From: Pseudorhodoferax sp. Leaf274
GTDB taxonomy: Bacteria > Pseudomonadota > Gammaproteobacteria > Burkholderiales > Burkholderiaceae_C
Direction: 5' to 3'
Assembly (NCBI RefSeq): GCF_001422445.1
Contig: NZ_LMNA01000025.1
Location: forward strand, 1,061-65,060
DNA length: 64,000 bases
Part shown: positions 34,072-59,866 of the stretch, piece by piece
Layout of the letters: every line of letters begins with the position of its first letter
Numbering within the stretch: the stretch's first letter is position 1
Translations under genes and position numbers: made by a program
Notes under the pieces: model-generated
What the model was told of the DNA's origin: nothing
The model's input: only the letters and a program-made list of their open reading frames with translations
The model's database searches: none

Positions 34072-35697
34072 ATGAACCACGACAAGATCCTCATCCTCGA
34101 CTTCGGCTCCCAGGTCACGCAACTGATCGCCCGGCGCGTGCGCGAAGCCCATGTCTACAGCGAAGTCCATCCCTGTGACGTGACGGACGAATGGGTGCGC
34201 GCCTACGCGGCCGATGGCCATTTGAAGGGCGTGATCCTGTCGGGCAGCCATGCCAGCGTCTACGAGGACACCACCGACAAGGCGCCGGCGGCCGTGTTCG
34301 CGCTGGGCGTGCCGGTGCTGGGCATCTGCTACGGCATGCAGACCATGGCGCACCAGCTGGGCGGCAAGGTCGAAGGCGGCCACAAGCGCGAGTTCGGCTT
34401 CGCCTCCGTGCGGGCGCGCGGCCACACCCGGCTGTTCGACGGCATCCAGGACTTCGCCACGGCCGAAGGCCACGGCATGCTGGACGTGTGGATGAGCCAT
34501 GGCGACAAGGTCACCGAGCTGCCGCCCGGCTTCAAGCTCATGGCCAGCACGGACAGCTGCCCCATCGCCGGCATGGCCGACGAGGAGCGCCGCTTCTACG
34601 CCGTGCAGTTCCACCCCGAGGTCACGCACACGAAGCAGGGCCACGCCATCCTGGAGCGCTTCGTGCGCGGCATCTGCGCTGCGCAGGCCGACTGGGTCAT
34701 GCGCGACCACATCGCCGAGGCCGTTGAGAAGATCCGCGAACAGGTGGGCGACGAGGAGGTGATCCTGGGCCTGTCCGGCGGCGTCGATTCCAGCGTGGCC
34801 GCGGCGCTGATCCACCGCGCCATCGGCGACCAGCTGACCTGCGTGTTCGTGGACCACGGCCTGCTGCGCCTGCACGAAGGCGACATGGTGATGGACATGT
34901 TCGTCGGCAAGCTGCACGCCAAGGTCATCCGCGTCGATGCCAGCGACCTGTTCCTGGGCAAGCTGGCCGGCGTGAGCGACCCCGAGGCCAAGCGCAAGAT
35001 CATCGGCGGCGAGTTCGTCACGGTGTTCAAGCAGGAAGCCGCGAAGCTCACCAGCGCCGGTGCCAAGGGCGCCAAGTGGCTGGCCCAGGGCACGATCTAC
35101 CCCGACGTGATCGAGTCCGGCGGTGCCAAGAGCAAGAAGGCCGTGACCATCAAGAGCCACCACAACGTGGGCGGCCTGCCCGAGCAGCTGGGCCTCAAGT
35201 TGCTGGAGCCGCTGCGCGACCTGTTCAAGGACGAGGTGCGCGAGCTGGGCGTGGCCCTGGGCCTGCCGTCCGAGATGGTCTATCGCCATCCGTTCCCCGG
35301 CCCCGGCCTGGGCGTGCGCATCCTGGGCGAGGTCAAGAAGGAATACGCCGACCTGCTGCGCCGCGCCGATGCGATCTTCATCGAGGAGCTGCGCAACTTC
35401 CGCGACGAGGCACCCGGTCCCAACTTCGGCAAGAGCTGGTACGACCTCACGAGCCAGGCCTTCACCGTGTTCCTGCCGGTCAAGAGCGTGGGCGTGATGG
35501 GCGATGGCCGCACCTACGACTACGTGGTCGCGCTGCGCGCCGTGCAGACCAGCGACTTCATGACCGCCGACTGGGCCGAGCTGCCCTACGCGCTACTCAA
35601 GAAGGTTTCCAGCCGCATCATCAACGAGGTGCGCGGCATCAACCGCGTCACCTACGACGTGAGCAGCAAGCCGCCGGCGACGATCGAGTGGGAGTGA
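34072..35697 (+). CDS. guaA: GMP synthase GuaA
   Basis: A 541-residue glutamine-hydrolysing GMP synthase (XMP to GMP). The class I amidotransferase domain has C86, H181 and E183 as triad; the ATP pyrophosphatase loop SGGVDS is at 235-240. The protein ends in the usual TIEWE. The last 18 bases (35680-35697) are repeated in degenerate form at 46732-46749, suggesting that the gene served as the integration site of the island that follows and was restored on insertion. Confidence 0.98.
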
Positions 35698-36268
35698 GGG
35701 TCGCGGGTTTGCCAGCGTGCCGTGGCGCGCTGGTCTTGCTTTTGATCCACCGGTAGTTTTTCGTCGACGGCGAAGGTTAATTGGACCTCTTGCCTCCAGA
35801 GCCGATAACCACGCCAGGGCTCGGGCAAGACGTCTGTGCCTGGGATGGGGATGTGTTGGAGACGCGCAGCCAGACAGCGCGCCTGCGCGCAGCGGCGATA
35901 GGCGTAAGACACCGAAATACGAAGATGATGAGTGGTGGCATCCATTCCGTTGTCGAAGTGGCGCAGCAGGCGGATGTAGGCGGCCGCCAGTGATCCATGG
36001 GACTGCAAAGGGGATGCCAGAGACATATCTGTTCGGTGTAGCGTACGAGGCGATGGTCCAGGTAAGCCAGCAGCCATTGTTGATGTGCCTCGTCCCAGAC
36101 GTCCAGCGGACCGCCATCGTCAGCACTCACGGTGCGCGCCATCAACCAAGCCTCCTGCACCACGTCTTCGTATTGCTGTTCTCCGGCAGTCTTCCAGGCG
36201 ATGCCGCGCAATTTTTTCTTCCGCTGGGTGACGAATTGATTGAAGGCATCGTCAACGGTGGTTGTCAC
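35652..36268 (-). pseudogene. Frameshifted sigma-factor-like gene
   Basis: From a GTG at 36266-36268 with AGGAG upstream, the first 80 residues include EDVVQEAWLMARTV, similar to sigma-70 region 2. Near 36024-36033 the sensible frame shifts by -1 and continues with DMSLASPLQSHGSLAAAYIR and ISVSYAYRRCAQARCLAARL, which resembles a region 4 helix-turn-helix. One inserted base would restore about 205 residues. The final part overlaps the guaA 3' end by 46 bases, so the original C-terminus may be lost. It begins 14 bases after jetD and was probably co-transcribed with it. Decay, sequencing error and programmed frameshifting all remain possible. Confidence 0.5.
35680..35697 (+). other. Candidate attachment site (left), guaA 3' end
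   Basis: ACGATCGAGTGGGAGTGA encodes TIEWE and the stop of guaA. It matches 46732-46749 at 15 of 18 bases, all differences being in third codon positions. The guaA 3' end is a known integration target of genomic islands. Confidence 0.6.
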
Positions 36269-36282
36269 GCAGGACTCCTGTG

Positions 36283-37566
36283 TCAGGTGAGGCACAAGTC
36301 ATCGAGCAGGGACTCGGCCAGCGCTTCCTCGGCAATCGCCAGGCCGTATCGACGCATGGTGGGGGCCAGATGTGCGTCCCAGAGCGCCTCTGTTTCGGAG
36401 CCGGTCAGGGCGTGGCGTGCGGACGTTGCGGCCCGTGCGGCCGTTTCGTAGTCGGCCATTTCCATGCGCCAGGGTGCAGCACCGGCATAGCGTAGCAAAT
36501 GGTTGGCAATGCGCAGGCCGGCCCAATCGAAGTCACCGTGATAGCGCAATAGCGCGCCGGACCTCGCCAACTGTTGCAATAGCGTTCGCTGTGCGGCGGC
36601 CGGCATGCCATCGGTGCAAACCAGAGGCGCGCAACGGGTGTGGAGTTGGTCGGCGGCGATGGCCAGCAGATTGGGGTTTTCGCAGACGAACACCGTGCGG
36701 CCGGCCATGGCCCATTGAGGTGCAGCGCGCAGCAGCCAGCGCAGCGACAGGTAGGCGGGTTCGCCGGGCAGCCAGGGCGCGGTGTCCAAGCCTAAGGGTA
36801 ACGGCAAGTTCAGCACCAGCACCGGTCGGGCGAGTTCATTGACGAGCACACCAGCGCGCGCCCAGATGTCACGCGCGCGTTCGTCGACAGCGGGGCCGGG
36901 CGGCTCCTCCCGGGAGTCATCGAGAGCCTCGTCACCGATTTCGGCAGCGGGCACGCCGCGCGCTGCTTCGGCATGGCGCCAGGCTGCCAGCACCAATGCC
37001 GCGACGGGTCGGCCGGGGTCGAGGGCGTGCGCATCACCGAGGATCTGTGCGGCCAGCTGCGAGCGCGGCAAGCCGGTAGCCGGCAAGCGGCCGAGGACTC
37101 TGCCGGCCTGCATCAGCAAGATGTCGGCGGCATTGGCATCCTGTCGCGACAGGCGCTTTAGCAATCCGGCAGCGGTGGCGGATTGCAGCCAGGCATGCAG
37201 GAACGGATGGCGGTCGGGCCTGGACAGTATGACCAGCCAGGCGGCCTGGGTCACGGCGCGTTCGGCAAGGAAGTCTGTGATCGGCCCGTCCAGCCGCTCC
37301 AGAGCTTCGCGCAGCGAACCTGCGATGCCGGCAGACTGTAGTCGGGCCTGCAATTCGGCAAGATCCAGGCGCAGCGAGCTCGTCACTTTGGCGGGCCGGC
37401 CGCTCAGCAGCGCCAGCGCCTCGCGCTCAACTGGCTGCAATTGGCTGAGTTGCAACATGCCCTCGGCCGCGCCGCCGCGCTCGAAATGGCGCCGCAGGCG
37501 TTGCCGAAGCGCGGCCAGCTCGGGGCCGCCAAGCAGGCGCTGCAGGCGAGGGTCAGGTGTTGCCAT
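36283..37566 (-). CDS. jetD: Wadjet nuclease subunit JetD (DUF2399/TIGR02679)
   Basis: A 427-residue protein of the TIGR02679 family. The C-terminal half has a Toprim-like core, with HGDFDWAGLRIANHLL (about 345-360) as the conserved acidic motif, as in topoisomerase VI-type enzymes. In Wadjet systems JetD cuts circular plasmid DNA after extrusion by the JetABC motor. Its ATG lies 14 bases inside the end of jetC. It is the last intact gene of the operon. Confidence 0.85.
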   Translation of the reverse strand: MATPDPRLQRLLGGPELAALRQRLRRHFERGGAAEGMLQLSQLQPVEREALALLSGRPAKVTSSLRLDLAELQARLQSAGIAGSLREALERLDGPITDFLAERAVTQAAWLVILSRPDRHPFLHAWLQSATAAGLLKRLSRQDANAADILLMQAGRVLGRLPATGLPRSQLAAQILGDAHALDPGRPVAALVLAAWRHAEAARGVPAAEIGDEALDDSREEPPGPAVDERARDIWARAGVLVNELARPVLVLNLPLPLGLDTAPWLPGEPAYLSLRWLLRAAPQWAMAGRTVFVCENPNLLAIAADQLHTRCAPLVCTDGMPAAAQRTLLQQLARSGALLRYHGDFDWAGLRIANHLLRYAGAAPWRMEMADYETAARAATSARHALTGSETEALWDAHLAPTMRRYGLAIAEEALAESLLDDLCLT

Positions 37567-40500
37567 CGGCTGGCGGCGGTGGGGGTGCCGGCGGGAAGCG
37601 GCGGTCCGGGTCGTCCTCGCGCCGCCGCATGCGCCCGTCCCAGACCCAGCGCGAGACATGCACCGCGTCCACGCCCTCGCGGCGCTGCAGCTGCGCAATG
37701 GCCACGCCCGGCAGCTCGGCCGAGCAGGCCCATTCGCGTTCGCTGGTGATGACGAAGTCGAGGTCGAACTCGCGCACCAGCGCCCAGCAGTGGGCGCGTG
37801 CGGCGTCGTCGATGCCGGCGAAGGCTTCGTCCAGCAGCACTAGCCGTGGCGCCTGCGCGCTGCCGGCCTGGCTGTAGAAGCTGGAAACGGCGGCGAACAG
37901 GGGCACGGTGAGGCCGAGTGCGCGTTCGCCGCTGGAGGCGGGGCCGGACAGGGCGCGCCATTGCCCATCCTGCCAGCGCTGCACGCGGAAGCGGTGCCAG
38001 CGCCGGTAGTCCAGCGCACGTGCCAGTTGCTCCTGCAGGCTGCCGCCTTGTTCGGCATCGGCGCGGCTGCGCTCGGCCGCGATGCGCTGCTGCAGCATCT
38101 CGCCGACGACGCGACGGTCCTCCGCGGTCCACAGGTCCGAACTGGTGTTGAGCAGGCGGCGGCGCGCGGCTTCCAGGCCGACGGGGGCACCCTCGGCGCC
38201 TTCGGGCAGCGTTTGCCATTGCAGGCGGAAGCGCACGCCGGTGGAGGTGGGGCGCTTGTGCAATTCTGTGTTGATCGCCTCGACCTGATGCTCGGCCTCG
38301 CGCAGCAGCTTCTGCACCGCGGCGGCGATCTCGGCCTGCAGGTGGTTCTCCAGCACCTCACGTTCGCCGGCCGTCAGCAGCTCGCGGCGCTGCGCGATCT
38401 CGGCCGCCAGTTGCAGGCTGAGCTGGTCGGGCCGCTCGGGCCGGTTGCGGTAGACGATGCGGACCACGAAGCCATGGTCGCTGGTCTCGGCCTGCGCCTG
38501 GTGGCTGAGCGCGGACAGCGCGCGGCCGAGCTCGGTGAAGTCTTGCGACACCTGGGTCTGCACCCGGCTCCAGGCTTCGTCGTCGTCCTTCACGTCCGAC
38601 AGCGCCTGTTCCGCGCGGCGCGCCAGGGTCAGCGCGGACTCGATGGTCCAGGGCGTTGTCTGCGGTGGCTGTTCGGCGTCGGGCAGCGCAGTGGCCAGCA
38701 GGCCGGTGGCGGCGAAGCCTTGCAGCTGGGCCACGGCGTGCTGGCGCGCGGCCGTGCGCTCGTCCAGCATGGCGGTGGCGGCGAGGGCTTTTTGTTCGGC
38801 TTTGGCGCGGCCTTCGCCGGCCTGTCGGCGGGCTTCGTGCTGCTGGTTCAGCCGCTGTTGGCCGGTGCTCACGGCGCTGCGCGCTTCGCTCAGGCGCCGG
38901 CGCACGTCCTCGACCGCTGCGCCGATGGACTCCACCAGGGTCTGCCAATGGATCTGGGCTTCCTCGGCCAGCGCCGCGCGCTCGGCGGCTTGCTCCGCGG
39001 CGCTCTCGGCTGCGGTGATGGCCTCGTGTTCACGCGCGCGCTGCTGCGCCAGCTCGACCGAGGCATCCCGCAGCTCGCGTGCGGCCGTTGCCAGCGCGTG
39101 GATGGCCTCGCCGAAGGTCTGCAAGGCCAGCGCAATGGCGGCCAAGGCCTCGCGGTTCGCCGGCAGCGCGAGGTCTTCGGCGTCGCGCGCCAGTGCGTGC
39201 TGGGCCAGCTCCCAGGCTTGCGCGGCCTCGCGCCAGCGGCGCTCGGCCTGGTCCAGCCGCAGGCGGGCGGCTTCGTATTCGCGGGCGCTGGCGGCGGCCT
39301 GGGCATGGGCACCGCGCAATGCGTCGTCGCCGGGCGCGCGCTCCCATTCCTGCGTGGCTTGTTGGCGAGCGGCTACGAGCTGGTCGAAGGATCGCGCCAA
39401 TGCGACGGCATCCGTGGCCAGCTCGGACAGGCGCTCGACGATCTCCTGCAATCGCCGCGCGCGTGCGGCGGCACGTGCCGCGTAGCCGATGAATTCGGCG
39501 CGCGGCTTGGACCAGGCGCCAGCCAGCGCGCCGAGGCGAAAGCGCCCGTCGGGCGAGAGCCAGGCTTCGGCGGCCGGTGCATCTTCGGTTCCGCAGGCCA
39601 CGCCTTCGAGCAGGCGCCGCAGCACCACAGGCGCCACCGTGCTGTTGTCTGCGGGTTGCAGCCAGTCCGCCAGCGAGGCGGCTTGCGTGGGCCGGGCCAG
39701 CCACTGCGTGTCATGCAGCAGTGGTGAGCCGTCGGCGCCGAGTAGCCCGCCGTCCGGTGTGACCCAGGCGTCCAGCAGATCGGCGGCCTGCAACGCGGCT
39801 TCCAGACCAGCGCGCTGGCCATCGGCAAGCCCGGATGCGAAGTCGACGAGCTGCCACAGCGGCGCCCCCGCCCGACCGGCACGGGCGGATTCGCTGCGCC
39901 AGTGCGGGGCCGGCGGCAGCGCGTCTTCACCCTGTTCCAGTCGTGTGCGTTCGGCCTGCAGCGTCTGCTGTTCTTCGGCCAGCGTGCGGCGCTGTGCCTC
40001 CAGCTCGGCCTGGCGCCGGGCCAGGCGGTCGGCGCCGGCCTGCTGGGCCGACAGCAGTGCCGCACTGGCCGGGTTCTGCCCTTGCGGATCGAGGGCCCAG
40101 GTCGTCAGCCGGTCCAGCACCTGGGGCGCGTCCAGCAGGTGCAGCTCGCGCAGGCTGTCGAAGTGGTTCTGCCAGGCGTCTTGCAATACCTGGGCCTGTT
40201 CGTTGACGGCAGCGTCGGCTTCGGCGCGGCGGGCGGCGGCATCCTCGGCTTCGTCGCGGCACAGGTCGCGGTGCTCCTGTTCGCGGCGATGCATTTCGGC
40301 CTTGCGCTCGACGGCGTCGCAGCGCTGCAGCAGCAAGGCGGCCTGCTCGCGGCGCAAGGTGAGCGCGCGGCGCAACTCGTCCTGTGCCGCCAGAACGGCC
40401 GAGGGTTCCAGCGTGGCGAGCTCGGCAACGGCTAGGGGATTCGCGTCGAGCGCGCGCGTCAGGCCGGCGTTGGCGGCATCCTGCGCCGCATCCCGGCGCC

Positions 40501-41758
40501 GGGTGGCCAGTACGCGCGCGGCCTGTTCGCTGCGCTCGCCGCGCTGGCGGCTGGCCTGCTGTTCCCGCGCCAGGCGGGCTTCGGCCTCGCGGCGATCGAC
40601 TGCTGCCTTGCCCGCTTCGTCCTGCCGGCGCCGGGCTTCGCGCTCGGCGTTGTCGAGTTGCCTGGCGCCGGCCATGGCCGGGTCGTTCTGCAGCGCTTCG
40701 TGGCGCAGGCGTGCGGTGGCCAATGCGGCGTCGTCTGCCGCCAATTGCGCAATTGCCTCGGTTTCTGCTGCCTCGGCCTGCGTCAGTGCGCTGCGGCTGT
40801 CGTTCAGCGCGCGGCTGGCGTTGTCGAAGCCGGTCTGCGCGCCGCGCAGATTGCGCGCCTTGCGGCGGGCCTGCGTGGCGGCATAGCGCCGGTAGCGCTG
40901 GTTGAACTGATCGACGGCGCGTTCCAGCGCCTCGTACTCGGCCAGCTCTCGGCGGTCTTCCTCCAGCCGGCTCAGTGCGTCGGCCACGTCGGCCAGCAGG
41001 TCGGTGGGCAGCGGCGGCAGTGCTTCGGTCAGCGCCTGCGACAGGTTGACCTCGTCGGGCTTTTTCGACAGCTGGGGTTGGCGCAACTGGATCAGCGTGT
41101 CCATCAGCGCGGCGTAGCGCACCGGGCCGAGGTGGAACAGGCGCTCGTCCACGGCGCGCCGGTACTCGGCGGCGGTGGGAAAGAGCTGGCCGCCCAGCGG
41201 CTCTAGCGCGTCGCGCAGCCGCTCGCGTGTGAGCACCACGCGCGTGGGGCCGATCAGCCAGAGGTCCTGCCCGACGCGTCCGCCTTCGAGCAGGAAGAAC
41301 CAGCTGTCCACCTGCGCCCGCGCGGCCGTTGCCGCGAGGCCGCAGCCGAGCGTCAGGAAGTGCGGCGTGCCGTCGGCATCGACACGGCCGAACTCGATCC
41401 AGGCATAGCCCATGCGCCGCTCATGGCGGCCGAGCAGCAGGTTCCAGGCCATCTTCTTGCCGGGATCGCCGTCGGGCTCGATGCGCGAGGACTTGAGTTG
41501 CGCGTCGAACAGGAAGGGCAAGGTCAGCGACAGCACCTTGGACTTGCCGGTGCCGTTGTTGCCGCGCAGCAGCAGGTGGCCGTCGCGGAACCAGAACTCC
41601 TCGCTGTCGTAGTGGAACAGCTCGACCAGGCCCAGGCGCAGCGGCTGCCAGCGTGGCAGATCGGGTTGGGGCAGGGCGGGGCGGGCGTTGTCGGTCATTG
41701 GGATACCTTCGCCTGCGGCTGCGGTGCGAGCCTCTTCGGGCGGCCGGGCGAGGCTCAT
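37553..41758 (-). CDS. jetC: Wadjet SMC-like ATPase JetC (TIGR02680)
   Basis: A 1401-residue SMC/SbcC-like ATPase. The Walker A GNNGTGKS is at 66-73. Two long coiled-coil arms, rich in Ala, Glu, Arg and Gln, flank a central hinge region. Near the C-terminus are the signature SSGERAL, the Walker B VLLDEAFAGID and the switch TSEREW. This is the DNA-extruding motor of Wadjet. The ATG at 41756-41758 overlaps the jetB stop (ATGA) and is chosen over an in-frame ATG 20 codons later. The length and domain order are complete for the family. Confidence 0.9.
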   Translation of the reverse strand: MSLARPPEEARTAAAGEGIPMTDNARPALPQPDLPRWQPLRLGLVELFHYDSEEFWFRDGHLLLRGNNGTGKSKVLSLTLPFLFDAQLKSSRIEPDGDPGKKMAWNLLLGRHERRMGYAWIEFGRVDADGTPHFLTLGCGLAATAARAQVDSWFFLLEGGRVGQDLWLIGPTRVVLTRERLRDALEPLGGQLFPTAAEYRRAVDERLFHLGPVRYAALMDTLIQLRQPQLSKKPDEVNLSQALTEALPPLPTDLLADVADALSRLEEDRRELAEYEALERAVDQFNQRYRRYAATQARRKARNLRGAQTGFDNASRALNDSRSALTQAEAAETEAIAQLAADDAALATARLRHEALQNDPAMAGARQLDNAEREARRRQDEAGKAAVDRREAEARLAREQQASRQRGERSEQAARVLATRRRDAAQDAANAGLTRALDANPLAVAELATLEPSAVLAAQDELRRALTLRREQAALLLQRCDAVERKAEMHRREQEHRDLCRDEAEDAAARRAEADAAVNEQAQVLQDAWQNHFDSLRELHLLDAPQVLDRLTTWALDPQGQNPASAALLSAQQAGADRLARRQAELEAQRRTLAEEQQTLQAERTRLEQGEDALPPAPHWRSESARAGRAGAPLWQLVDFASGLADGQRAGLEAALQAADLLDAWVTPDGGLLGADGSPLLHDTQWLARPTQAASLADWLQPADNSTVAPVVLRRLLEGVACGTEDAPAAEAWLSPDGRFRLGALAGAWSKPRAEFIGYAARAAARARRLQEIVERLSELATDAVALARSFDQLVAARQQATQEWERAPGDDALRGAHAQAAASAREYEAARLRLDQAERRWREAAQAWELAQHALARDAEDLALPANREALAAIALALQTFGEAIHALATAARELRDASVELAQQRAREHEAITAAESAAEQAAERAALAEEAQIHWQTLVESIGAAVEDVRRRLSEARSAVSTGQQRLNQQHEARRQAGEGRAKAEQKALAATAMLDERTAARQHAVAQLQGFAATGLLATALPDAEQPPQTTPWTIESALTLARRAEQALSDVKDDDEAWSRVQTQVSQDFTELGRALSALSHQAQAETSDHGFVVRIVYRNRPERPDQLSLQLAAEIAQRRELLTAGEREVLENHLQAEIAAAVQKLLREAEHQVEAINTELHKRPTSTGVRFRLQWQTLPEGAEGAPVGLEAARRRLLNTSSDLWTAEDRRVVGEMLQQRIAAERSRADAEQGGSLQEQLARALDYRRWHRFRVQRWQDGQWRALSGPASSGERALGLTVPLFAAVSSFYSQAGSAQAPRLVLLDEAFAGIDDAARAHCWALVREFDLDFVITSEREWACSAELPGVAIAQLQRREGVDAVHVSRWVWDGRMRRREDDPDRRFPPAPPPPPADGNT

Positions 41759-43005
41759 GCGGCGTCGAACAGGGAGTTCTGTGAAGGGGCGGTGGCGGCT
41801 CGCAGTTCGGTCTCGCCGAGTGCGAAGCGGGCCAGTGCAGGCAGCGGGCGCACCTGCTCGCCCTGCGTGGAGATCAGGCGCAACTGCGCCAGGCGCTGCA
41901 CGGCAGTGCGGGCGAGTTCGTGCTCGGCACCGGGCTCGCGCGCGGACTTGCGCCAGTAGTTTCCGTAGCGCTTGCGCGCCTCGGTGATGAAGGCGGCGAT
42001 CTCGTCCAGGCCGCAGCCTTCGGCCGCACCGGCGCGTTGCCGGCCGGCCAGGAACTCGGCCACCAGCAAGGTGGCGTGGGCCTCGGTGCCTTCGGCCGGC
42101 ATGGCCACGTCGGTCAACGCGCCGTCCTCGTCGACCAGCGCGAGCCCTTCGGCCCGTTGCTCGGGCACCAGGCCGGTGGCCTCGCACAGGCGTGTGGCCA
42201 TGGCGCCACGCTGGTTGGCGAAGTACGCACGCGGGGCTTCTTCCAGCGTGTCGAAGTAGACCACCGGGTCGTCCAGCAGACGGCGGGCCAGGTGATGGCG
42301 CAGGGCCGTGCGCTGGCTGTCCTCGCTGTCGGGCACGTGTTCGTCCACCAGCGACGCCAGGCGCTCGTCCAGCGTCACCGGTGCCTGCGTGTCCGGCCAG
42401 GTGGAGGGGCCGCGCACGGCGGTCAGCATGCCGGCCAGCACGCGGCGCTGCACGTCGTAGAGCGCATCGGCGCCTTCGCCGCCGGCCGTGGCATCGCGCA
42501 CGAAGCCTTCCTCGTCGCCGGCCACGCGCTGCAGCACGCCGAGCGCCAGCAGCGTGCGGCACACGGCCACCAGCTCGCGCCGCTCGTGCGGGGCGGTCAA
42601 GTTGAAAGTGAAGCCGCGCGAGTCCAGCATCGGATCGGCCGCCAGCGTCAGCAGCCGGTCACCGAGCAGGCGCAGGGTGATCTGGGCCTCGGCGCGCTCC
42701 AGCACGGCGCAGGCCAGGCACAGCAGCACGTAGCGCCGGCGCTCGTAGCCTGGCAGGCCGCGGCTGGCGTCGGACAGGTCGGCCGGGCGCTTATACAGGC
42801 GCGCGCAGTCGCGCTCGATGTGCAGCGGCCAGCCGGCCTCGCGTGCGAACCAGGCGCGCAGGTCGTCCGCATGGCGGCGCACGGCCGCGAAGTCTTCGTG
42901 CGCCGGCGTCATCAGCGGAGTCATCAAGAGCGCGCGCAGCGCGTGGACGCGCTCGTCGTCACGGTGGCTCTGCTGCTGGCGGGCGATCTGGCGGGTGTCT
43001 GTCAT
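41755..43005 (-). CDS. jetB: Wadjet subunit JetB (DUF2398/TIGR02678)
   Basis: A 416-residue DUF2398 protein, thought to be the KITE-like subunit that joins the JetA kleisin to the JetC heads. It is mainly helical with winged-helix-like segments, including RYVLLCLACAVLERAEAQIT, and the C-terminal conserved block ITEARKRYGNYWRKSAREPG. Four-base overlaps with jetA upstream and jetC downstream (both ATGA) indicate coupled translation and fixed stoichiometry. Confidence 0.85.
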   Translation of the reverse strand: MTDTRQIARQQQSHRDDERVHALRALLMTPLMTPAHEDFAAVRRHADDLRAWFAREAGWPLHIERDCARLYKRPADLSDASRGLPGYERRRYVLLCLACAVLERAEAQITLRLLGDRLLTLAADPMLDSRGFTFNLTAPHERRELVAVCRTLLALGVLQRVAGDEEGFVRDATAGGEGADALYDVQRRVLAGMLTAVRGPSTWPDTQAPVTLDERLASLVDEHVPDSEDSQRTALRHHLARRLLDDPVVYFDTLEEAPRAYFANQRGAMATRLCEATGLVPEQRAEGLALVDEDGALTDVAMPAEGTEAHATLLVAEFLAGRQRAGAAEGCGLDEIAAFITEARKRYGNYWRKSAREPGAEHELARTAVQRLAQLRLISTQGEQVRPLPALARFALGETELRAATAPSQNSLFDAA

Positions 43006-44540
43006 GCGCGTGTGTCCACCTCGGAGATGGTCAGCAGGTGGTCGCGGCCGGAGAACACGCCGGCCGGTGTGTGGATCTCGGCCCGGCTGCCGGGCGCCAA
43101 GGGCTGCAGCCGGATGCGCAGCAGGCCGTCGCCACTGGCTTGCTCGACCGAGGCCTCGGGGTCGGGTTGCGCGGCCAGCGCTTCGCCCAGCAAGGCGAGG
43201 AACAGGCCGAAGGCATGCGGGTCGAGCGCGCCCAGCTCCGAGAGCTTCACGGGTCGGTCCGTGGCGAGGCGCTGGCGCGCGGCTTCGATCTGCGCATGTT
43301 CCTCGTGCAACTGGGCTGCGAGCAGGCGCCGGGCGTCGTCGCGCGCCTGTACGCGGGGCATTGGGCCGCGCGGCGCGGCCTCGCCATACTCGCGCAGCCG
43401 CGGGTGGATGCGCAGCGGCGGCGCTTCGGCCCAGGGCGTGCTGGCGGGCAGTTCGGCGGCGCCGGGTTGCAGCGCGGGGTTCAGCGCGAAGTGCCGTGCC
43501 GGCTGCAGCGCGAAGGCCGCGCGCGCCAGACGATGCGTCTGCGGATCGTCCTCGCAGGAAGCGAACCAGCCGGCCAGCACGCGGAAGTCGGCCGAGCGAT
43601 CGCTGCGCCCGCTGCGGCGCTCGTTGAGCGCGGCGACGGCGGCCAGCAGCAGCGGGATCGCGGCGCGTGCCTTGGCCCGCAGCAGCTCGGCCTGGGGTGG
43701 GTCGTGCCGCTCGGCAATGAACCAGCGCCGCAGGCCGCGCCAGCGCTCGCGCCAGGCCCGCAGGCTGCGGACTTGCGCCTCGCGTTGCTCCTCTTCGTTG
43801 CCGGGCGCTGCGTCGCGCGATTCACGCTCCACGGCCAGCCACAACAGCATCTCGATACGCGGCGCCACCGCCAGGATGCGCTGTGCGATGCCGCCGGAGC
43901 GGCTGACCAGATCGCCAATGAAGCGCTCCAGGTAGTCGATCAGGCGGCGCTTGTAGGCCACCACGGCCTGTGCGTCGGCCTGCTGCAGCTCGATGCTGCG
44001 CGCGATGCCGGCCATGAAGGCTTGCGCGTTGTCTGCCAGGCCCTCGAACACGCGCACCAGGTCGCGCAGCGTGGCGTGCACCTTGGCGGCGTCGGGCGCT
44101 TCCTCCTCAGCCAGGGCTTGCAGGGCTTCGAGCCGGTGCGCGATGTCTTCCAGCGCCACGGTCTGCAGCTCGGCACGGCGCGAGAGCGCTCGCGCGAAGG
44201 TTTCCAGGGCCGACTCCACCGCCTCGCCGCCCTGCGACAGGCGGTACAGGAACTTGGCACGGTAGAAATCGGCGATGCTGGCCACGCGCGTGGTGTCGGG
44301 CTGCGATTCGAGGTTGCCCCATTCGGTGAGCTGGGCCAGTGCGGCCTGCAACTCCTCCAGCCGTGGCGCAGCGGGCATGCCCTGCCAGTGGCCTTCGATC
44401 AGCACCTCGTCGGGCCGCAGGTGCAGGCGGAACTGGCGCTTGGCGGCTGCAAAGGTCTGCATCACGGCGCGGTAGAGCGCAGTCTTTTCGGCGCTGACGT
44501 GACGAAAAAGTTCGGCTTGGACGCCGGCGCGGACTGTCAT
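43002..44540 (-). CDS. jetA: Wadjet subunit JetA (DUF2397/TIGR02677)
   Basis: A 512-residue DUF2397 protein, the probable kleisin-like subunit. The family N-terminus (LFRHVSAEKTALYRAVMQTF) and the segment WGNLESQPDTTRVASIADFY are present; the middle is long-helical. The ATG at 44538-44540 overlaps the stop of a 70-codon ORF upstream. It is the first recognised gene of the four-gene set, and transcription may begin further upstream, even at the AbiE pair. Confidence 0.85.
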   Translation of the reverse strand: MTVRAGVQAELFRHVSAEKTALYRAVMQTFAAAKRQFRLHLRPDEVLIEGHWQGMPAAPRLEELQAALAQLTEWGNLESQPDTTRVASIADFYRAKFLYRLSQGGEAVESALETFARALSRRAELQTVALEDIAHRLEALQALAEEEAPDAAKVHATLRDLVRVFEGLADNAQAFMAGIARSIELQQADAQAVVAYKRRLIDYLERFIGDLVSRSGGIAQRILAVAPRIEMLLWLAVERESRDAAPGNEEEQREAQVRSLRAWRERWRGLRRWFIAERHDPPQAELLRAKARAAIPLLLAAVAALNERRSGRSDRSADFRVLAGWFASCEDDPQTHRLARAAFALQPARHFALNPALQPGAAELPASTPWAEAPPLRIHPRLREYGEAAPRGPMPRVQARDDARRLLAAQLHEEHAQIEAARQRLATDRPVKLSELGALDPHAFGLFLALLGEALAAQPDPEASVEQASGDGLLRIRLQPLAPGSRAEIHTPAGVFSGRDHLLTISEVDTRA

Positions 44541-44749
44541 GAGGTGAAGTCCGGCATCCACGTCCGGCCCGCATCGTCGACATCGCGCCCAACCAGCTCT
44601 GCCGCGCTGGTGGAGACCCAAGGAAGATTGGCCGGCTCCGCCCGTGCACGCATCAACAATTGATCAGTCAGCGACACCAACTGCGCCGAGTGGAAGTTGA
44701 CGCCGATGTCTACCAATTGCGCGCGTTCGAATCTTGACCCTGTGCTCAT
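44537..44749 (-). CDS. 70-residue ORF coupled to jetA
   Basis: The stop codon overlaps the jetA start (ATGA), as at the other junctions of the operon, so it is probably translated. Residues 11-35 (QLVDIGVNFHSAQLVSLTDQ and after) resemble the first strand and helix of TatD-type metal nucleases, but the rest does not, and a TatD protein would be some 260 residues. It may be a truncated remnant that keeps the coupling, or a small Wadjet accessory. No ribosome site is obvious. Confidence 0.5.
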   Translation of the reverse strand: MSTGSRFERAQLVDIGVNFHSAQLVSLTDQLLMRARAEPANLPWVSTSAAELVGRDVDDAGRTWMPDFTS

Positions 44750-44779
44750 GCGCCGATGGTATGAGGTGCTGCTGATCGT

Positions 44780-44908
44780 CTATCTGCGCTCAGGTGCGGG
44801 ACTGTGCTTGAGTGCCGCCGCAGCAGGCACACCCTCGACGTCTTCATCGGCAATCCCGTACAGGATCGTTCCACCACCAGCGTTCGCGAAGGCAGCGCAA
44901 TTCAGAAG
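44780..44908 (-). pseudogene. Remnant of an AlbA_2/Schlafen-type protein
   Basis: The frame reads NCAAFANAGGGTILYGIADE, the core of the AlbA_2 DNA-binding domain, then ends after about 15 more residues. The expected upstream and downstream parts are missing, and the 5' end runs into the AbiEii 3' end. It is a fragment of a former gene, perhaps deleted when the present neighbours came together. Confidence 0.5.
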
Positions 44909-45747
44909 GTCCCGAGTTTCTGGAACTCGCCGCGCAACAGCGCGACGACCTGGGCGAGGTCCAGGGCCTCGAGTCGATTCTTTTTCAGGAAGGCCGCCCA
45001 CTGTCGTTGCTTCGCGGCATCCTGCATGAATGCATCGCTTAAGCCCGAAGGGAGGGTGCTGGGCATTGCGAGTTTCCGGCGATCAAACGTGGCCTCGACT
45101 GCGCGGCGCAGTTCGGCGGTTTCCAAGGCATTCTCGGCAAGCAGTACCCAGAGATCGAAGTAGTCCTTCATGCGGGTATTGGCCATGCCGAGCAGGCACA
45201 GCGCATGAAACTTCTCGGCCACCACCGTGTATTTCGGATAGGAGCGCAGTTGCGGGGCGGGCAGGTCTTCGAGCAGCACCGGGTAGCTGACCGTCTCCGG
45301 CGCCAGCGTGACCGCGTCGCCAAAACCGATGTCCACCTGCAGCGCGATGCGCGCACCATCCAGCTTCGCCCGCAGGTCGATCCGCACACCGCCGTAGCCC
45401 GCCTCTCTGCGGATCACCGAGCCGTTGACCGAGGCAGGATCGAATGCGATGCCATCCTCCACCACGATCTGGCACATCTCGCGGAAGGCCGCCACGGCGG
45501 TGTCGAGATCGTCTGGACCGAAGCCCAGCAGGTCCGCATCCCGCGTCGGCCGATGTGGTTGGTCGTACCACAGCGAAAACAGCAGTGCGCCCTTGAGCAG
45601 GTAATTGGCGGCATGCGGCGATACCGACAGCCGGTACAGAAGCCGCTCCAACCCATAGTGAGTCAGCGTCAGGTTGAAGTCCTGTTTCGTGGCATCGGCG
45701 CGCTGCTTCAGGCGGGCGCGGATGGAAGCGGCCAGGTTGCGGCTCAT
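44902..45747 (-). CDS. abiEii: AbiEii-family nucleotidyltransferase toxin
   Basis: A 281-residue toxin of the AbiE system. YLLKGALLFSLWYDQPHRPT and RDADLLGFG form the nucleotidyltransferase motifs with the DxD metal site, and MKDYFDLWVLL is the conserved second block. Enzymes of this family add nucleotides to tRNA acceptor ends or GTP-related targets and stop growth during phage attack. The start overlaps the antitoxin stop (ATGA). The 3' end adjoins the AlbA remnant. Confidence 0.9.
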   Translation of the reverse strand: MSRNLAASIRARLKQRADATKQDFNLTLTHYGLERLLYRLSVSPHAANYLLKGALLFSLWYDQPHRPTRDADLLGFGPDDLDTAVAAFREMCQIVVEDGIAFDPASVNGSVIRREAGYGGVRIDLRAKLDGARIALQVDIGFGDAVTLAPETVSYPVLLEDLPAPQLRSYPKYTVVAEKFHALCLLGMANTRMKDYFDLWVLLAENALETAELRRAVEATFDRRKLAMPSTLPSGLSDAFMQDAAKQRQWAAFLKKNRLEALDLAQVVALLRGEFQKLGTF

Positions 45748-46385
45748 GCGGTGGCGCTTTCCAGGTAGGGCCGCATGACATTGGCAACGCGATCCACCGT
45801 GGCGTAGTGCCAGAGCGCATCCATGGTCAGCTTGCGCTGCGACCAGCCATCGCGCAGCGCTTCCAGCGCCACGTCCAGGCCAATCTTGTTGCGGTACTTG
45901 AAACAGTCGGCCACCGTCTTGGCCGCGTTGAACACCGGGACTTTCACGCCGTCGATCTCGAACGGCTCGATGCCCTCGGTCAGAGCGGCGCCCGACATGC
46001 GCACCACGCGCAGGGCAGGCTGGTCCAGCCGGGGTGTGGGCGAGTGATGGGGGATCGCCATCCAGACCTCGAAGGGCGCTTGCGTTCCGATGCCATGGAC
46101 GCGCAGCGCCGACAGCATGCACACCACGCCACGCGGCACGCGCAGGGCTACCTCGGCCAAAGACCGGTGCTCGCTGAGCGGGCGCCCTGGCAGGCTGTAG
46201 ACGCCGCGGGCGATGCGCTCAAGCTTGCCGGCTGCAACCAGCCGGCTGAGCACCACGGTTGGAAAGCCCTGCTCAGCCAGATCTCGCGCGCGCAGCAGTG
46301 GGCGACGTCCGGCGAACGCGAGGACGGCTTGTTCGAGCGTGGAGTCCGAGCCCATCCCCTGAAGTTTGTTGCAATAATTAGTCAT
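45744..46385 (-). CDS. abiEi: AbiEi-family antitoxin
   Basis: A 213-residue antitoxin and autoregulator. The N-terminal winged helix (about 15-75, LRARDLAEQGFPTVVLSRLV) is followed by RIARGVYSLPG and the C-terminal antitoxin domain. An ATG at 46353-46355 would give 203 residues and would place the inverted repeat at 46365-46396 directly upstream, so the shorter form is quite possible. It is the first gene of the pair. Confidence 0.85.
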   Translation of the reverse strand: MTNYCNKLQGMGSDSTLEQAVLAFAGRRPLLRARDLAEQGFPTVVLSRLVAAGKLERIARGVYSLPGRPLSEHRSLAEVALRVPRGVVCMLSALRVHGIGTQAPFEVWMAIPHHSPTPRLDQPALRVVRMSGAALTEGIEPFEIDGVKVPVFNAAKTVADCFKYRNKIGLDVALEALRDGWSQRKLTMDALWHYATVDRVANVMRPYLESATA

Positions 46386-46396
46386 TTGTCAACAAA
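46365..46396. promoter_or_regulatory. AbiE operator/promoter candidate
   Basis: TTTGTTG and CAACAAA form a perfect seven-pair inverted repeat with an 18-base spacer. On the minus strand the right arm is followed by TTGACA (46387-46392), a consensus -35 element; no clear -10 lies 17 bases on. AbiEi proteins bind inverted repeats at their own promoter, so autoregulation is likely. Confidence 0.5.
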
Positions 46397-46731
46397 CGAC
46401 TAGCTAACGCAATGCTAATGAAAGCTACCTGGAAATTCCGAACGCGTGAGTTTCGGAACAGCGCTCCCAACGTATAAGGCGAACTCATCCCGGAAGCCGG
46501 GTAGGACACCCTGCCTGCGCCGTTTTGCAGAGAGCGCGTTCAACGCGGGCAAAATAGAGCCACGGTCGCTGGCGATTTTTGACGATTGATGCGCTGGAGT
46601 AGCCGCCCCGCGAACCAAGTCCATCTCCCGCGCCAGCAAGAGCGCCCATTTTTGAACGGTAGAAGTGACGGTAAAGCACAATGCCCCACCCCCCCAAAGC
46701 AAGGATCCATGCGGGTCTCCGGCTCTCGGAA
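46397..46731. other. Intergenic end of the island, no gene recognised
   Basis: About 335 bases between the AbiEi gene and the right guaA-end copy. The base composition is somewhat less GC-rich than the flanks. Short open frames exist on both strands, but none shows a domain or ribosome site. A CCCGG-AAG-CCGGG hairpin lies near 46490. No integrase remnant or tRNA was recognised. Confidence 0.4.
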
Positions 46732-46749
46732 ACCATTGAGTGGGAATGA
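46732..46749 (+). other. Candidate attachment site (right), displaced guaA end
   Basis: ACCATTGAGTGGGAATGA encodes TIEWE and a stop, as at the guaA 3' end. Three of 18 bases differ from 35680-35697, all in third codon positions. This is the pattern expected when an island supplies a new 3' end and leaves the original one at its far side. Confidence 0.6.
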
Positions 46750-46814
46750 GCACCCGTCGCACTCCGATCGAACCCGCATCCGAATCACCATCCGTTTTCC
46801 TGTCCCTGAGCATC

Positions 46815-48062
46815 GTGCAAGCCAACCGTTCCCTGGTCCTTACCGCCGTCCTCGCCATCGCCGTCGGCGGCTTCCTCCCGTCATCGGCATCCTTCGCCGC
46901 CCAGCACCATGCCGGCAAGCCCGCCGCGCAAAAGGCCGGCGCGCAGAAGAAGGCCGCGGCCACGCCGCCCTCCGTCACGCAGTCCGCCGAGCCCGGCGGC
47001 CCGCCGGTGCTGGCCGCGAAGGCCTGGCTGCTGATGGACTACGACTCCGGCCAGGTGCTGGCGTCCGAGAACCCCGACGAGCCGCTGCCCCCGGCCTCGC
47101 TGACCAAGATGATGACCAGCTTCCTGGTCGAGCAGTCCATCCGCAACGGCAAGCTCAAGCAGGACGACCTCGTCTCGGTGAGCGAGAACGCCTGGTGCCG
47201 CGGCTCCAGCACCGAGTCGTGCATGTACCTGCCGCTCAACGCCCAGGCCAAGGTGATCGACATCCTGCGCGGCATCATCGTGCAGTCGGGCAACGACGCC
47301 TCCAAGGCCATCGCCGAGCACCTCGCCGGCACCGAGGAGAACTTCGCCAAGCTCATGAACGCCGAGGCCAAGCGCCTGGGCATGACGCACACCAACTTCG
47401 TCAATGCCACGGGCCTGCCCGACCCGGAGCACAAGGCCTCCGCGCGCGACCTGGCGATCCTGGCGCGCGCCATCATCCACGACAGCGCCGACTTCTATCC
47501 GATCTACGCCGAGCGCGAGTTCACCTACAACAAGATCAAGCAGGGCAACCGCAATGCCTTGCTCTACACCGACCCGTCGGTCGACGGCCTGAAGACCGGC
47601 CACACGCAGGAGGCGGGCTATTGCCTCGTCACCTCGTCCAAGCGCAACAACATGCGCCTGATCACCGTGATCCTGAACACCAGCAGCATGCAGGCGCGGG
47701 CCGACCAGACGCGTGCGCTGCTGAACTGGGGCTTCGCCCGCTTCGAGAAGGCCACGCCGATCCAGCCGGACGCGCAGGTGGCCGTGGCCAAGGTCAGCTT
47801 CGGCAAGGCCGACACCGTGCCGGCCGTGCTGGGCGCGCCCTGGACCATCACCGTGCCCAAGGGCCAGAAGCTGGAGACGGCCGCCCAGATCAACGCCGAC
47901 CTCGAGGCCCCCGTGGCCAAGGGCGCCGTGATCGGCAAGGTGGTGGCCACGTCGGGCGGCAAGCCCGTGGCAGAGGCGCCGCTGGTCGCGCAGGCCGACG
48001 TCGAGCGCGCGGGCTTCATGCTGCGCGCCTGGCAGCACCTGCTGCGGCTGTTCGGCAAGTAG
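46815..48062 (+). CDS. dacC: D-alanyl-D-alanine carboxypeptidase (DacA/DacC type)
   Basis: A 415-residue penicillin-binding protein of the S11 family that trims peptidoglycan pentapeptides. The signal peptide ends near SFAAQ; SLTK (95-98) holds the nucleophile, then SGN and KTG motifs (LKTGHTQEAG), and a C-terminal domain ends in an amphipathic helix (RAWQHLLRLFGK) for membrane attachment. An ATG at 46746 is in frame, but it lies within the displaced guaA end, so I prefer the GTG at 46815, which also places the signal peptide at the terminus. No strong ribosome site decides. Confidence 0.9.
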   Translation: MQANRSLVLTAVLAIAVGGFLPSSASFAAQHHAGKPAAQKAGAQKKAAATPPSVTQSAEPGGPPVLAAKAWLLMDYDSGQVLASENPDEPLPPASLTKMMTSFLVEQSIRNGKLKQDDLVSVSENAWCRGSSTESCMYLPLNAQAKVIDILRGIIVQSGNDASKAIAEHLAGTEENFAKLMNAEAKRLGMTHTNFVNATGLPDPEHKASARDLAILARAIIHDSADFYPIYAEREFTYNKIKQGNRNALLYTDPSVDGLKTGHTQEAGYCLVTSSKRNNMRLITVILNTSSMQARADQTRALLNWGFARFEKATPIQPDAQVAVAKVSFGKADTVPAVLGAPWTITVPKGQKLETAAQINADLEAPVAKGAVIGKVVATSGGKPVAEAPLVAQADVERAGFMLRAWQHLLRLFGK

Positions 48063-48153: not shown

Positions 48154-48918
48154 TCAACCGACGATGGCCTTGACGGCGAAGAACAGCAGCGACGGCCCGA
48201 GCAGGCAGCCCAGCCCGGTGTGGAAGGTCGCGACGAGGGCGCCGTACGGCACCAGCTTGCGGTCTGTGGCCGCAAGGCCTGCGGAAACACCGCTGACCGT
48301 GCCGGCCAGGCCACCGAAGACCATCGCCGAGCGGGGCGTCTTCAGCCCCAGGAACTTGGCGGCGATGGGCGTGCCCACCATCACCATGATGGCCTTGACC
48401 AGGCCCGTGGCGATGCTCAGCGCCATCACGTCCGAGCTCGCGCCGATCGCCGCGCCGGTGACCGGGCCGACGATGTAGGTGATGGCGCCGGCGCCGATCG
48501 TGGTCATGCTCACGGCGTCGGAATAACCCATGCTCCGCGCCACCGACGCGCCGACGATGAACGGCAGCACGGTGCCCAGCAGCAACGCGACCGCGCCGAC
48601 CATTCCGGCCTTGCGCGCTTCGGTGGCCTGCACCTCGAAGGCGGTCGCGACGATCGCGAAGTCGCGCAGCATCGCCCCGCCCATCAGCCCCATGCCGCTG
48701 AACAGCGACATGTCGGCCAGCCCCTTGTGGCCGCCGGTCTTGATGCCGCCCCAGTAGGCCAGCGCCAGGCCGATGACGATCGCGATCGCCGAGCCGTGCA
48801 CCCGCCCCATGGTCAACCGCTTGGAGATCTGCATGGACAGCAGCATCACCACGCCCACTACAGCGAAGGCGGTCACGAGGCCGTTCTGTTCGGCCGCTTT
48901 CTGAAGGATTTCCATCAT
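48154..48918 (-). CDS. madM: Malonate transporter subunit MadM
   Basis: A 254-residue integral membrane protein with about eight helices, matching MadM, the larger subunit of the sodium-dependent malonate carrier. Family segments include GRVHGSAIAIVIGLALAYWG, AYWGGIKTGGHKGLADMSLF and GAGAITYIVGPVTGAAIG. It starts five bases after madL. Malonate decarboxylase genes, usually adjacent, are absent here, so malonate would be processed by enzymes encoded elsewhere. Confidence 0.93.
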   Translation of the reverse strand: MMEILQKAAEQNGLVTAFAVVGVVMLLSMQISKRLTMGRVHGSAIAIVIGLALAYWGGIKTGGHKGLADMSLFSGMGLMGGAMLRDFAIVATAFEVQATEARKAGMVGAVALLLGTVLPFIVGASVARSMGYSDAVSMTTIGAGAITYIVGPVTGAAIGASSDVMALSIATGLVKAIMVMVGTPIAAKFLGLKTPRSAMVFGGLAGTVSGVSAGLAATDRKLVPYGALVATFHTGLGCLLGPSLLFFAVKAIVG

Positions 48919-48923
48919 GGCGA

Positions 48924-49337
48924 TCACTCCGCCTTGGCCAGCAGTTCGTTGTGCGGTCCGGACGGGGAGTCCGTCTCGGCGCCCGGGCGTTCGGTCCGGT
49001 TGATCAGCGCGATGACGCAGGCGCAGACTGCGACCGAGCCGAGCGCCGACAGCAGTGCGACCGGCCCGCCGCGCAGCGCGGCGACCACGTCCTGTTGCGC
49101 CGCCATGGCCACGACGACGGGGATGTACATCGCGCCCCAATACTCCACGCCCAATTCGGTGAGCTTGGGCAGGATGCCTTTGCGCGCCATGTAGATGCGC
49201 GCAAAGATCAACAGCATCATCGCGATGCCGACGCCGCCCACGTTGGTCTTGACGCCGAGCGCATGGCCCAGCAGGTCGCCGAGGAAGATCCCCAGCAGGT
49301 GGCAGGCCGCGAGCAGCGCGGTTCCGTAGATGATCAT
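48924..49337 (-). CDS. madL: Malonate transporter subunit MadL
   Basis: A 137-residue membrane protein with four helices, the small subunit of the malonate carrier. GVKTNVGGVGIAMMLLIF and GVEYWGAMYIPVVVAMAAQQ are diagnostic. AGGAG lies before the ATG at 49335-49337. It is the first gene of the madLM pair; the region upstream holds a possible operator at 49470-49498. Confidence 0.93.
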   Translation of the reverse strand: MIIYGTALLAACHLLGIFLGDLLGHALGVKTNVGGVGIAMMLLIFARIYMARKGILPKLTELGVEYWGAMYIPVVVAMAAQQDVVAALRGGPVALLSALGSVAVCACVIALINRTERPGAETDSPSGPHNELLAKAE

Positions 49338-49684
49338 GTCCGAGTCTCCTGTGGGTGGGCCGCGGTGCGGCGTGTCGAGGCGGGTTGGCCCGATGCGCCC
49401 CTGCATGCATCGTTGCCAGTGTCTCGGCAGCGAAGGTAACGGGCCGCTCGTGGCCGATCAATGAAGCCCCGTTGCGAATGCTTACGAAGCCCGCAACGAT
49501 CGAGGGTTAACCCGATGCCTCGCGTGCTGCGCGGCATCCATCGGCATGCCAGCGGCAGTCCCACGCTGGCCGGGGATGCTGGCGCGCACCGCTGGCGTGG
49601 GCTCCGAAGGGCGGGACGGTGGCTTCGTCGACCCCTGCGGGACTACCATCGGCACTCGCCAACCTCGTCACTTCCGCCGCCGCC
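49338..49684. promoter_or_regulatory. madLM-recQ intergenic region with inverted repeat
   Basis: A 347-base divergent promoter region. CGTTGCG (49470-49476) and CGCAACG (49492-49498) form a perfect seven-pair inverted repeat with a 15-base spacer, a suitable size for a GntR- or LysR-type regulator. No regulator gene is adjacent. An open frame running into recQ from 49619 is probably untranslated leader. Confidence 0.45.

Positions 49685-57898: not shown

Positions 57899-59866
<1,968 letters not shown>

Follow-up and report, generated by a model that had tools for sequence, protein, structure and literature searches.

A probable guaA-3′-end genomic island remnant with AbiE and Wadjet type II genes in Pseudorhodoferax sp. 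Leaf274

The 3′ end of guaA is already known as a site of genomic islands (PMC7775301, PMC9376610; Song et al. 2012 as cited in PMC7775301). In the accessible parts of the papers on GIsul2 and ICERspD18B, the sequence GAGTGGGA is named the core or consensus (PMC9376610, PMC7775301), and integrase activity has been published (PMC9376610, PMC7775301). The initial annotation of the locus described here had called the guaA 3′ end a recognised integration site, in agreement with the published islands carrying this core, as far as their accessible text goes. In the accessible parts of the literature on guaA islands and integrases, GMP synthase hotspots, Wadjet, defence hotspots and Comamonadaceae, we found no description of this locus.

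The locus lies in a 64,000-nucleotide stretch of DNA from strain Leaf274, all of which was analysed (hereafter, the window). The attachment gene is guaA (34072..35697, + strand), an intact GMP synthase gene with the Pfam domains GMP_synt_C and GATase. Its last 18 bases (35680-35697, ACGATCGAGTGGGAGTGA) recur at 46732-46749 (ACCATTGAGTGGGAATGA), also on the + strand; 15 of the 18 bases agree. The mismatches fall on positions 3, 6 and 15, which are all third codon positions, so two guaA-end copies with wobble-only differences are present just as first described. The core GAGTGGGA is found at both ends of the island (35686-35693 and 46738-46745). The right copy lies at the start of a dacC-like D-Ala-D-Ala carboxypeptidase gene (46746..48062, + strand; Peptidase_S11); the name dacC was given by the initial annotation and by us, from no search. 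The sequence GAGTGGGARTGA has two sites in the 6.7 Mb genome, namely the left and the right copy. For the degenerate pattern ACNATHGARTGGGARTRR, the expectation in the window was 0.00 and none of 100 shuffles reached two matches; the 18-mer with up to three mismatches is expected 0.04 times by chance. GC-rich matches dominated the output of a general repeat search of the window, and a tRNA search found no tRNA genes in it. Based on the unique repeat, four empty sites in relatives, an island with an integrase in a congener and the published core, we suggest, with a probability of about 85%, that 35698-46731 is the remnant of a genomic island inserted at the guaA 3′ end, between guaA and dacC.

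The dacC search confirmed 326 stretches, and the best 80 were kept as loci, most of them more distant and some on short contigs. guaA lies directly upstream of dacC in four of these best 80 loci, which is the adjacency predicted at the outset for island-free relatives. They are a MAG titled Proteobacteria bacterium (L018), Pseudorhodoferax sp. Leaf265 (L019), a genome labelled Variovorax boronicumulans DE0202 (L020) and Hydrogenophaga sp. 2FB (L054). In L018, L019 and L020, the guaA stop leads straight into the homologue of the sequence behind the right copy, with alignments that begin at 46732; L054 shows no alignment for about 110 bases past the guaA stop. Within the genus (six genomes including this one), guaA adjoins a close dacC in G002 and G004, and the dacC matches of G003 and G005 reach only 39–41% identity. 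The congener G001 carries a 79 kb island between guaA and dacC; it is bounded by a core copy on either side and has an integrase 305 bp after guaA. Relatives with both copies and no Wadjet genes, which the initial annotation had regarded as evidence against its reading, do exist in the form of G001, but another island fills that site.

Close same-strand core copies starting at guaA were found in 8 of 60 genomes, the window's included; a pair of core matches spaced by 26 bases within a simple repeat (G034) and a same-strand pair 286 kb apart (G055) were excluded. Regex searches returned no integrase, only unrelated frames; five of the seven other genomes have an integrase just behind guaA, recognised by eye in G009 and G027 and by phmmer too in G001, G015 and G023; integrase fragments were also matched by phmmer in G015 and G027. 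In G010 and G014, phmmer found no integrase despite the guaA core pairs. At E ≤ 1e-100, 43 of the 299 family genomes contain relatives of the G001 integrase, so that guaA is much used as an island site across the family. Thirty integrase loci were fetched, and the guaA end lies 298–343 bp upstream of the integrase in 29 of them, the right arm standing in its place in L182. The domains Arm-DNA-bind_3 and Phage_integrase (Pfam) were confirmed for the integrase of G169 only. Three guaA-end copies in a row, i.e., tandem islands at guaA, were observed in L110-L113 (G015) and L119-L120 (G010), and right-arm matches were seen mid-island, as if stacked, at 5139-5226 of L100 (G001) and 15980-16076 of L108 (G027).

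An element without its integrase had been proposed for the window, and none was indeed detected in the island. No tyrosine integrase was detected next to guaA in the window, and the locus is therefore filed as a remnant and not as a working member of the group. Inside the island, the search for integrase remnants gave nothing better than E 2.7; the best match in the window (E 0.05, 58699-58830) lies outside it. The window's genome contains no integrase of the G001 type at E ≤ 1e-100, and every one of its 13 Phage_integrase matches is on another contig. Where a complete attL had been expected, only guaA's own end was recovered. A model of 28 attL arms matched the window only at the last 24 bases of guaA and at the right end. 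The part of the model beyond the core had no match in the approximately 300 bases behind guaA where the attL arm should lie, and its best match in the window was the right arm (46632-46675, E 0.015). A right-arm model from which both the window and the core had been left out, in versions with five and eight arms, had its best window match at 46649-46716 (+ strand, nhmmer), a segment containing TGACGGTA and within one base of the register expected from other guaA islands. The E values in the window were 0.008 (five arms) and 0.0023 (eight arms), against 3.8 and 11 for the next best matches. Over the 2.5 Mb searched, they were 0.32 and 0.089, so this match, weak but in register, is modest evidence for a right arm.

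The right part of the island contains an AbiE type IV toxin–antitoxin pair, in which the genes for the AbiEii toxin (44905..45747, − strand) and the AbiEi antitoxin/regulator (45747..46385, − strand) are adjacent and both recognised by Pfam and PADLOC. An ORF at 44783..45001 (− strand) includes a Schlafen/AlbA_2 scrap (about 44810-44890; SLFN_AlbA_2, E 2e-4, just under the cut-off), the full-length counterpart of which has 316 aa in G169 and G309. The AlbA-AbiEii-AbiEi homology covers 44810-46426 against G309 and 44819-46407 against G169, with identities of 88.6% and 80.0%, respectively, in the AbiE part, and the AlbA part in the window is down to some 70–80 bases. The AlbA-AbiEii-AbiEi unit is probably cargo of the guaA island, because G169, a genome of another genus, has the order guaA-integrase-AlbA-AbiEii-AbiEi, with the unit in the same order and orientation as in the window. 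The contig of G169 stops ahead of any right end, and the closure of an island around the AbiE unit is thus unseen there. In G309, where the identity is higher, the unit is away from guaA, with no guaA in the surrounding 19 kb. AbiEi-AbiEii was also observed directly behind guaA on the same strand in G242 (L198 8441-11647), with one core in the 19 kb read.

Most of the island is occupied by four genes on the − strand: JetD2 (36286..37566; PADLOC E 7e-139), JetC2 (37556..41701; E 0), JetB2 (41758..43005; E 4e-147) and JetA2 (43005..44543; E 4e-203). They lie side by side, with near end-to-end PADLOC matches, and the operon is, by sequence classification, Wadjet type II. Between JetA and the AlbA scrap, an ORF of 70 aa (44540..44749, − strand) had no Pfam match at E 0.1 and no PADLOC match at E 0.01, and is probably debris. 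On the guaA side of the operon there is a sigma-factor-like remnant (35748..36295, − strand; Sigma70_r2, E 0.036, under the cut-off), frameshifted and with about 45 residues missing. Two of its frames match consecutive parts of a single G311 ORF, and its left end is approximate. Relatives of this piece at 36–44% identity were observed in G311, G184, G308 and G147, and a plasmid search with it gave no match. The interior is accessory, as originally annotated (Wadjet type II, AbiE and scraps), but the outside is not all core, as malonate transporter genes (madM/madL, 48157-49406) lie between dacC and recQ. In G001, G002 and G004, recQ directly follows dacC.

The initial annotation had counted the Wadjet genes as cargo of the guaA element, a claim which is unproven, with remnants of related operons located behind recQ in congeners. 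Behind recQ, G001 and G005 have an internally deleted Wadjet operon, of which the start of JetA and the end of JetD are left, and leftovers of 107 and 38 bases are found near a yeeE-like gene in G003 (L103) and G004, respectively. Thus, four of the five congeners keep Wadjet remnants, and G002 has none. In G001, G003 and G004, the yeeE-like gene comes next; none was found in G005. The end points of the decayed operons behind recQ differ between L104 (G005) and L102/L130 (G001).

One explanation, whose chances we put somewhat below even, is that Wadjet has long been present in the genus behind recQ and, in this lineage, was moved by about 15 kb into the decaying guaA island. Remnants behind recQ in G001, G003 and G005, together with the 38-base match in G004, speak for such a relocation, and so do the fourfold-site identities. 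For Wadjet, these are 0.681 (window–G001) and 0.691 (window–G005), which is near the values for recQ (0.729 and 0.669, respectively), far above those for other genera (0.413 for G162 and 0.393 for G176) and fits genus-level divergence. However, the relationships of JetA are unlike those of recQ. Over 158 common codons of JetA, 97% of nucleotide-identity bootstraps make G001 and G005 the closest pair of the three, whereas for recQ the window and G001 are the closest of the three in 99%; the window operon may therefore be a separate arrival. In a JetA tree with G162 and G176, the placement of the window relative to G001/G005 has a support of 48. In addition, the window has no Wadjet match in the approximately 120 bases that separate recQ from yeeE.

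Slightly less probable is a common origin, as in the initial annotation, in which a single guaA element brought in Wadjet with the whole stretch and afterwards lost nothing but its integrase and attL arm. The position of Wadjet between both repeat copies accords with it, as does the different grouping of JetA and recQ given above. On the other hand, JetA relatives at E ≤ 1e-60 are found in only 5 of the 299 family genomes, the other four having theirs outside guaA islands in the stretches read, and remnants of a closely related operon lie behind recQ in the congeners. Among plasmids, JetA matched six records, the best of them 46.5% identical.

Concerning the right copy of the repeat, the initial annotation had expected its wobble bases in the empty site. 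Left of the core, the right copy reads ACCATT, a hexamer absent from all four empty sites: L018 and L020 have ACGATC there, and L019 and L054 have ACCATC. L018 matches the left copy at each of the 18 positions. Given the published core, the bases before it in the right copy should come from the element. In six of the nine comparison right ends, the six bases at this place misfit the Thr-Ile codons; those ends therefore carry element bases there, and by analogy so would the right copy. From this analogy, together with the pattern and mismatch searches, we read the right copy as a probable hybrid attR, element-derived to the left of the core and chromosomal to the right. Alternatively, it may be a chromosomal form, given that ACCATTGAGTGGGAATGA also occurs at guaA itself in two other members of the family that bear islands (L176 and L184). 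A reading of the copy as a coincidental or regulatory match ahead of dacC, and not as an att site, is highly improbable: the repeat has only 18 bases, 15 of them identical, but at most 0.04 are expected per window and the empty junction of L018, L019 and L020 falls exactly there. The apparent ATG start of dacC at 46746 had been assigned to the old guaA end, and its overlap with the old guaA stop was confirmed. GTG 46815 is a likelier start because a signal-peptide-like stretch, recognised by eye, begins there; the frame upstream of it is open in all four empty sites (40 codons shown).

Returning to the guaA-3′-end island, we propose the following history. A P4-like tyrosine integrase would have inserted the island at the core GAGTGGGA, ahead of dacC. 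The left part, comprising the attL arm, the integrase and most of AlbA, would subsequently have been lost, and the Wadjet operon and the sigma-like gene scrap would now fill its place. Most likely, the locus is a truncated island, with Wadjet arriving later at the integrase end, and it should be unable to excise by itself. The originally annotated attL/attR element stands as a probable island without a detectable integrase, but no full attL was recovered and Wadjet as its cargo is unproven. Since both cores and one arm are kept, a visiting guaA integrase might excise and move Wadjet and AbiE in trans, making the island a cis-mobilisable defence cassette, and the integrase end of guaA islands may be where resident defence operons are captured; we regard this as improbable. 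The scar is of an ordinary kind with an unusual history, in which the right end and the AbiE pair survive and Wadjet is at the integrase's place. It is also a worked case of how a defence system could have been credited to a mobile element it did not come with, on the strength of bordering repeats alone.

In comparison with known systems, and as far as the accessible parts of the cited papers describe them, the locus resembles defence island 13 of Stenotrophomonas maltophilia (PMC11680222), a varied defence island with guaA as one flank; the other flank there is pgrR, and those parts describe no att anatomy. Like ICERspD18B (PMC7775301), which has the 20-bp repeat ACAATNGAGTGGGAATNNTT at both ends, the island is inserted at guaA; ICERspD18B differs in being conjugative and in having been observed as a circle. 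With GIsul2 and other GMP-synthase islands (PMC9376610), the window island shares the guaA 3′ end and the core GAGTGGGA. Intact relatives have an integrase near guaA, whereas the window copy is without a detectable integrase or attL arm and holds AbiE and Wadjet. Compared with Wadjet type II systems (JetABCD), the window has all four proteins and differs in their place within the scar of a guaA island.
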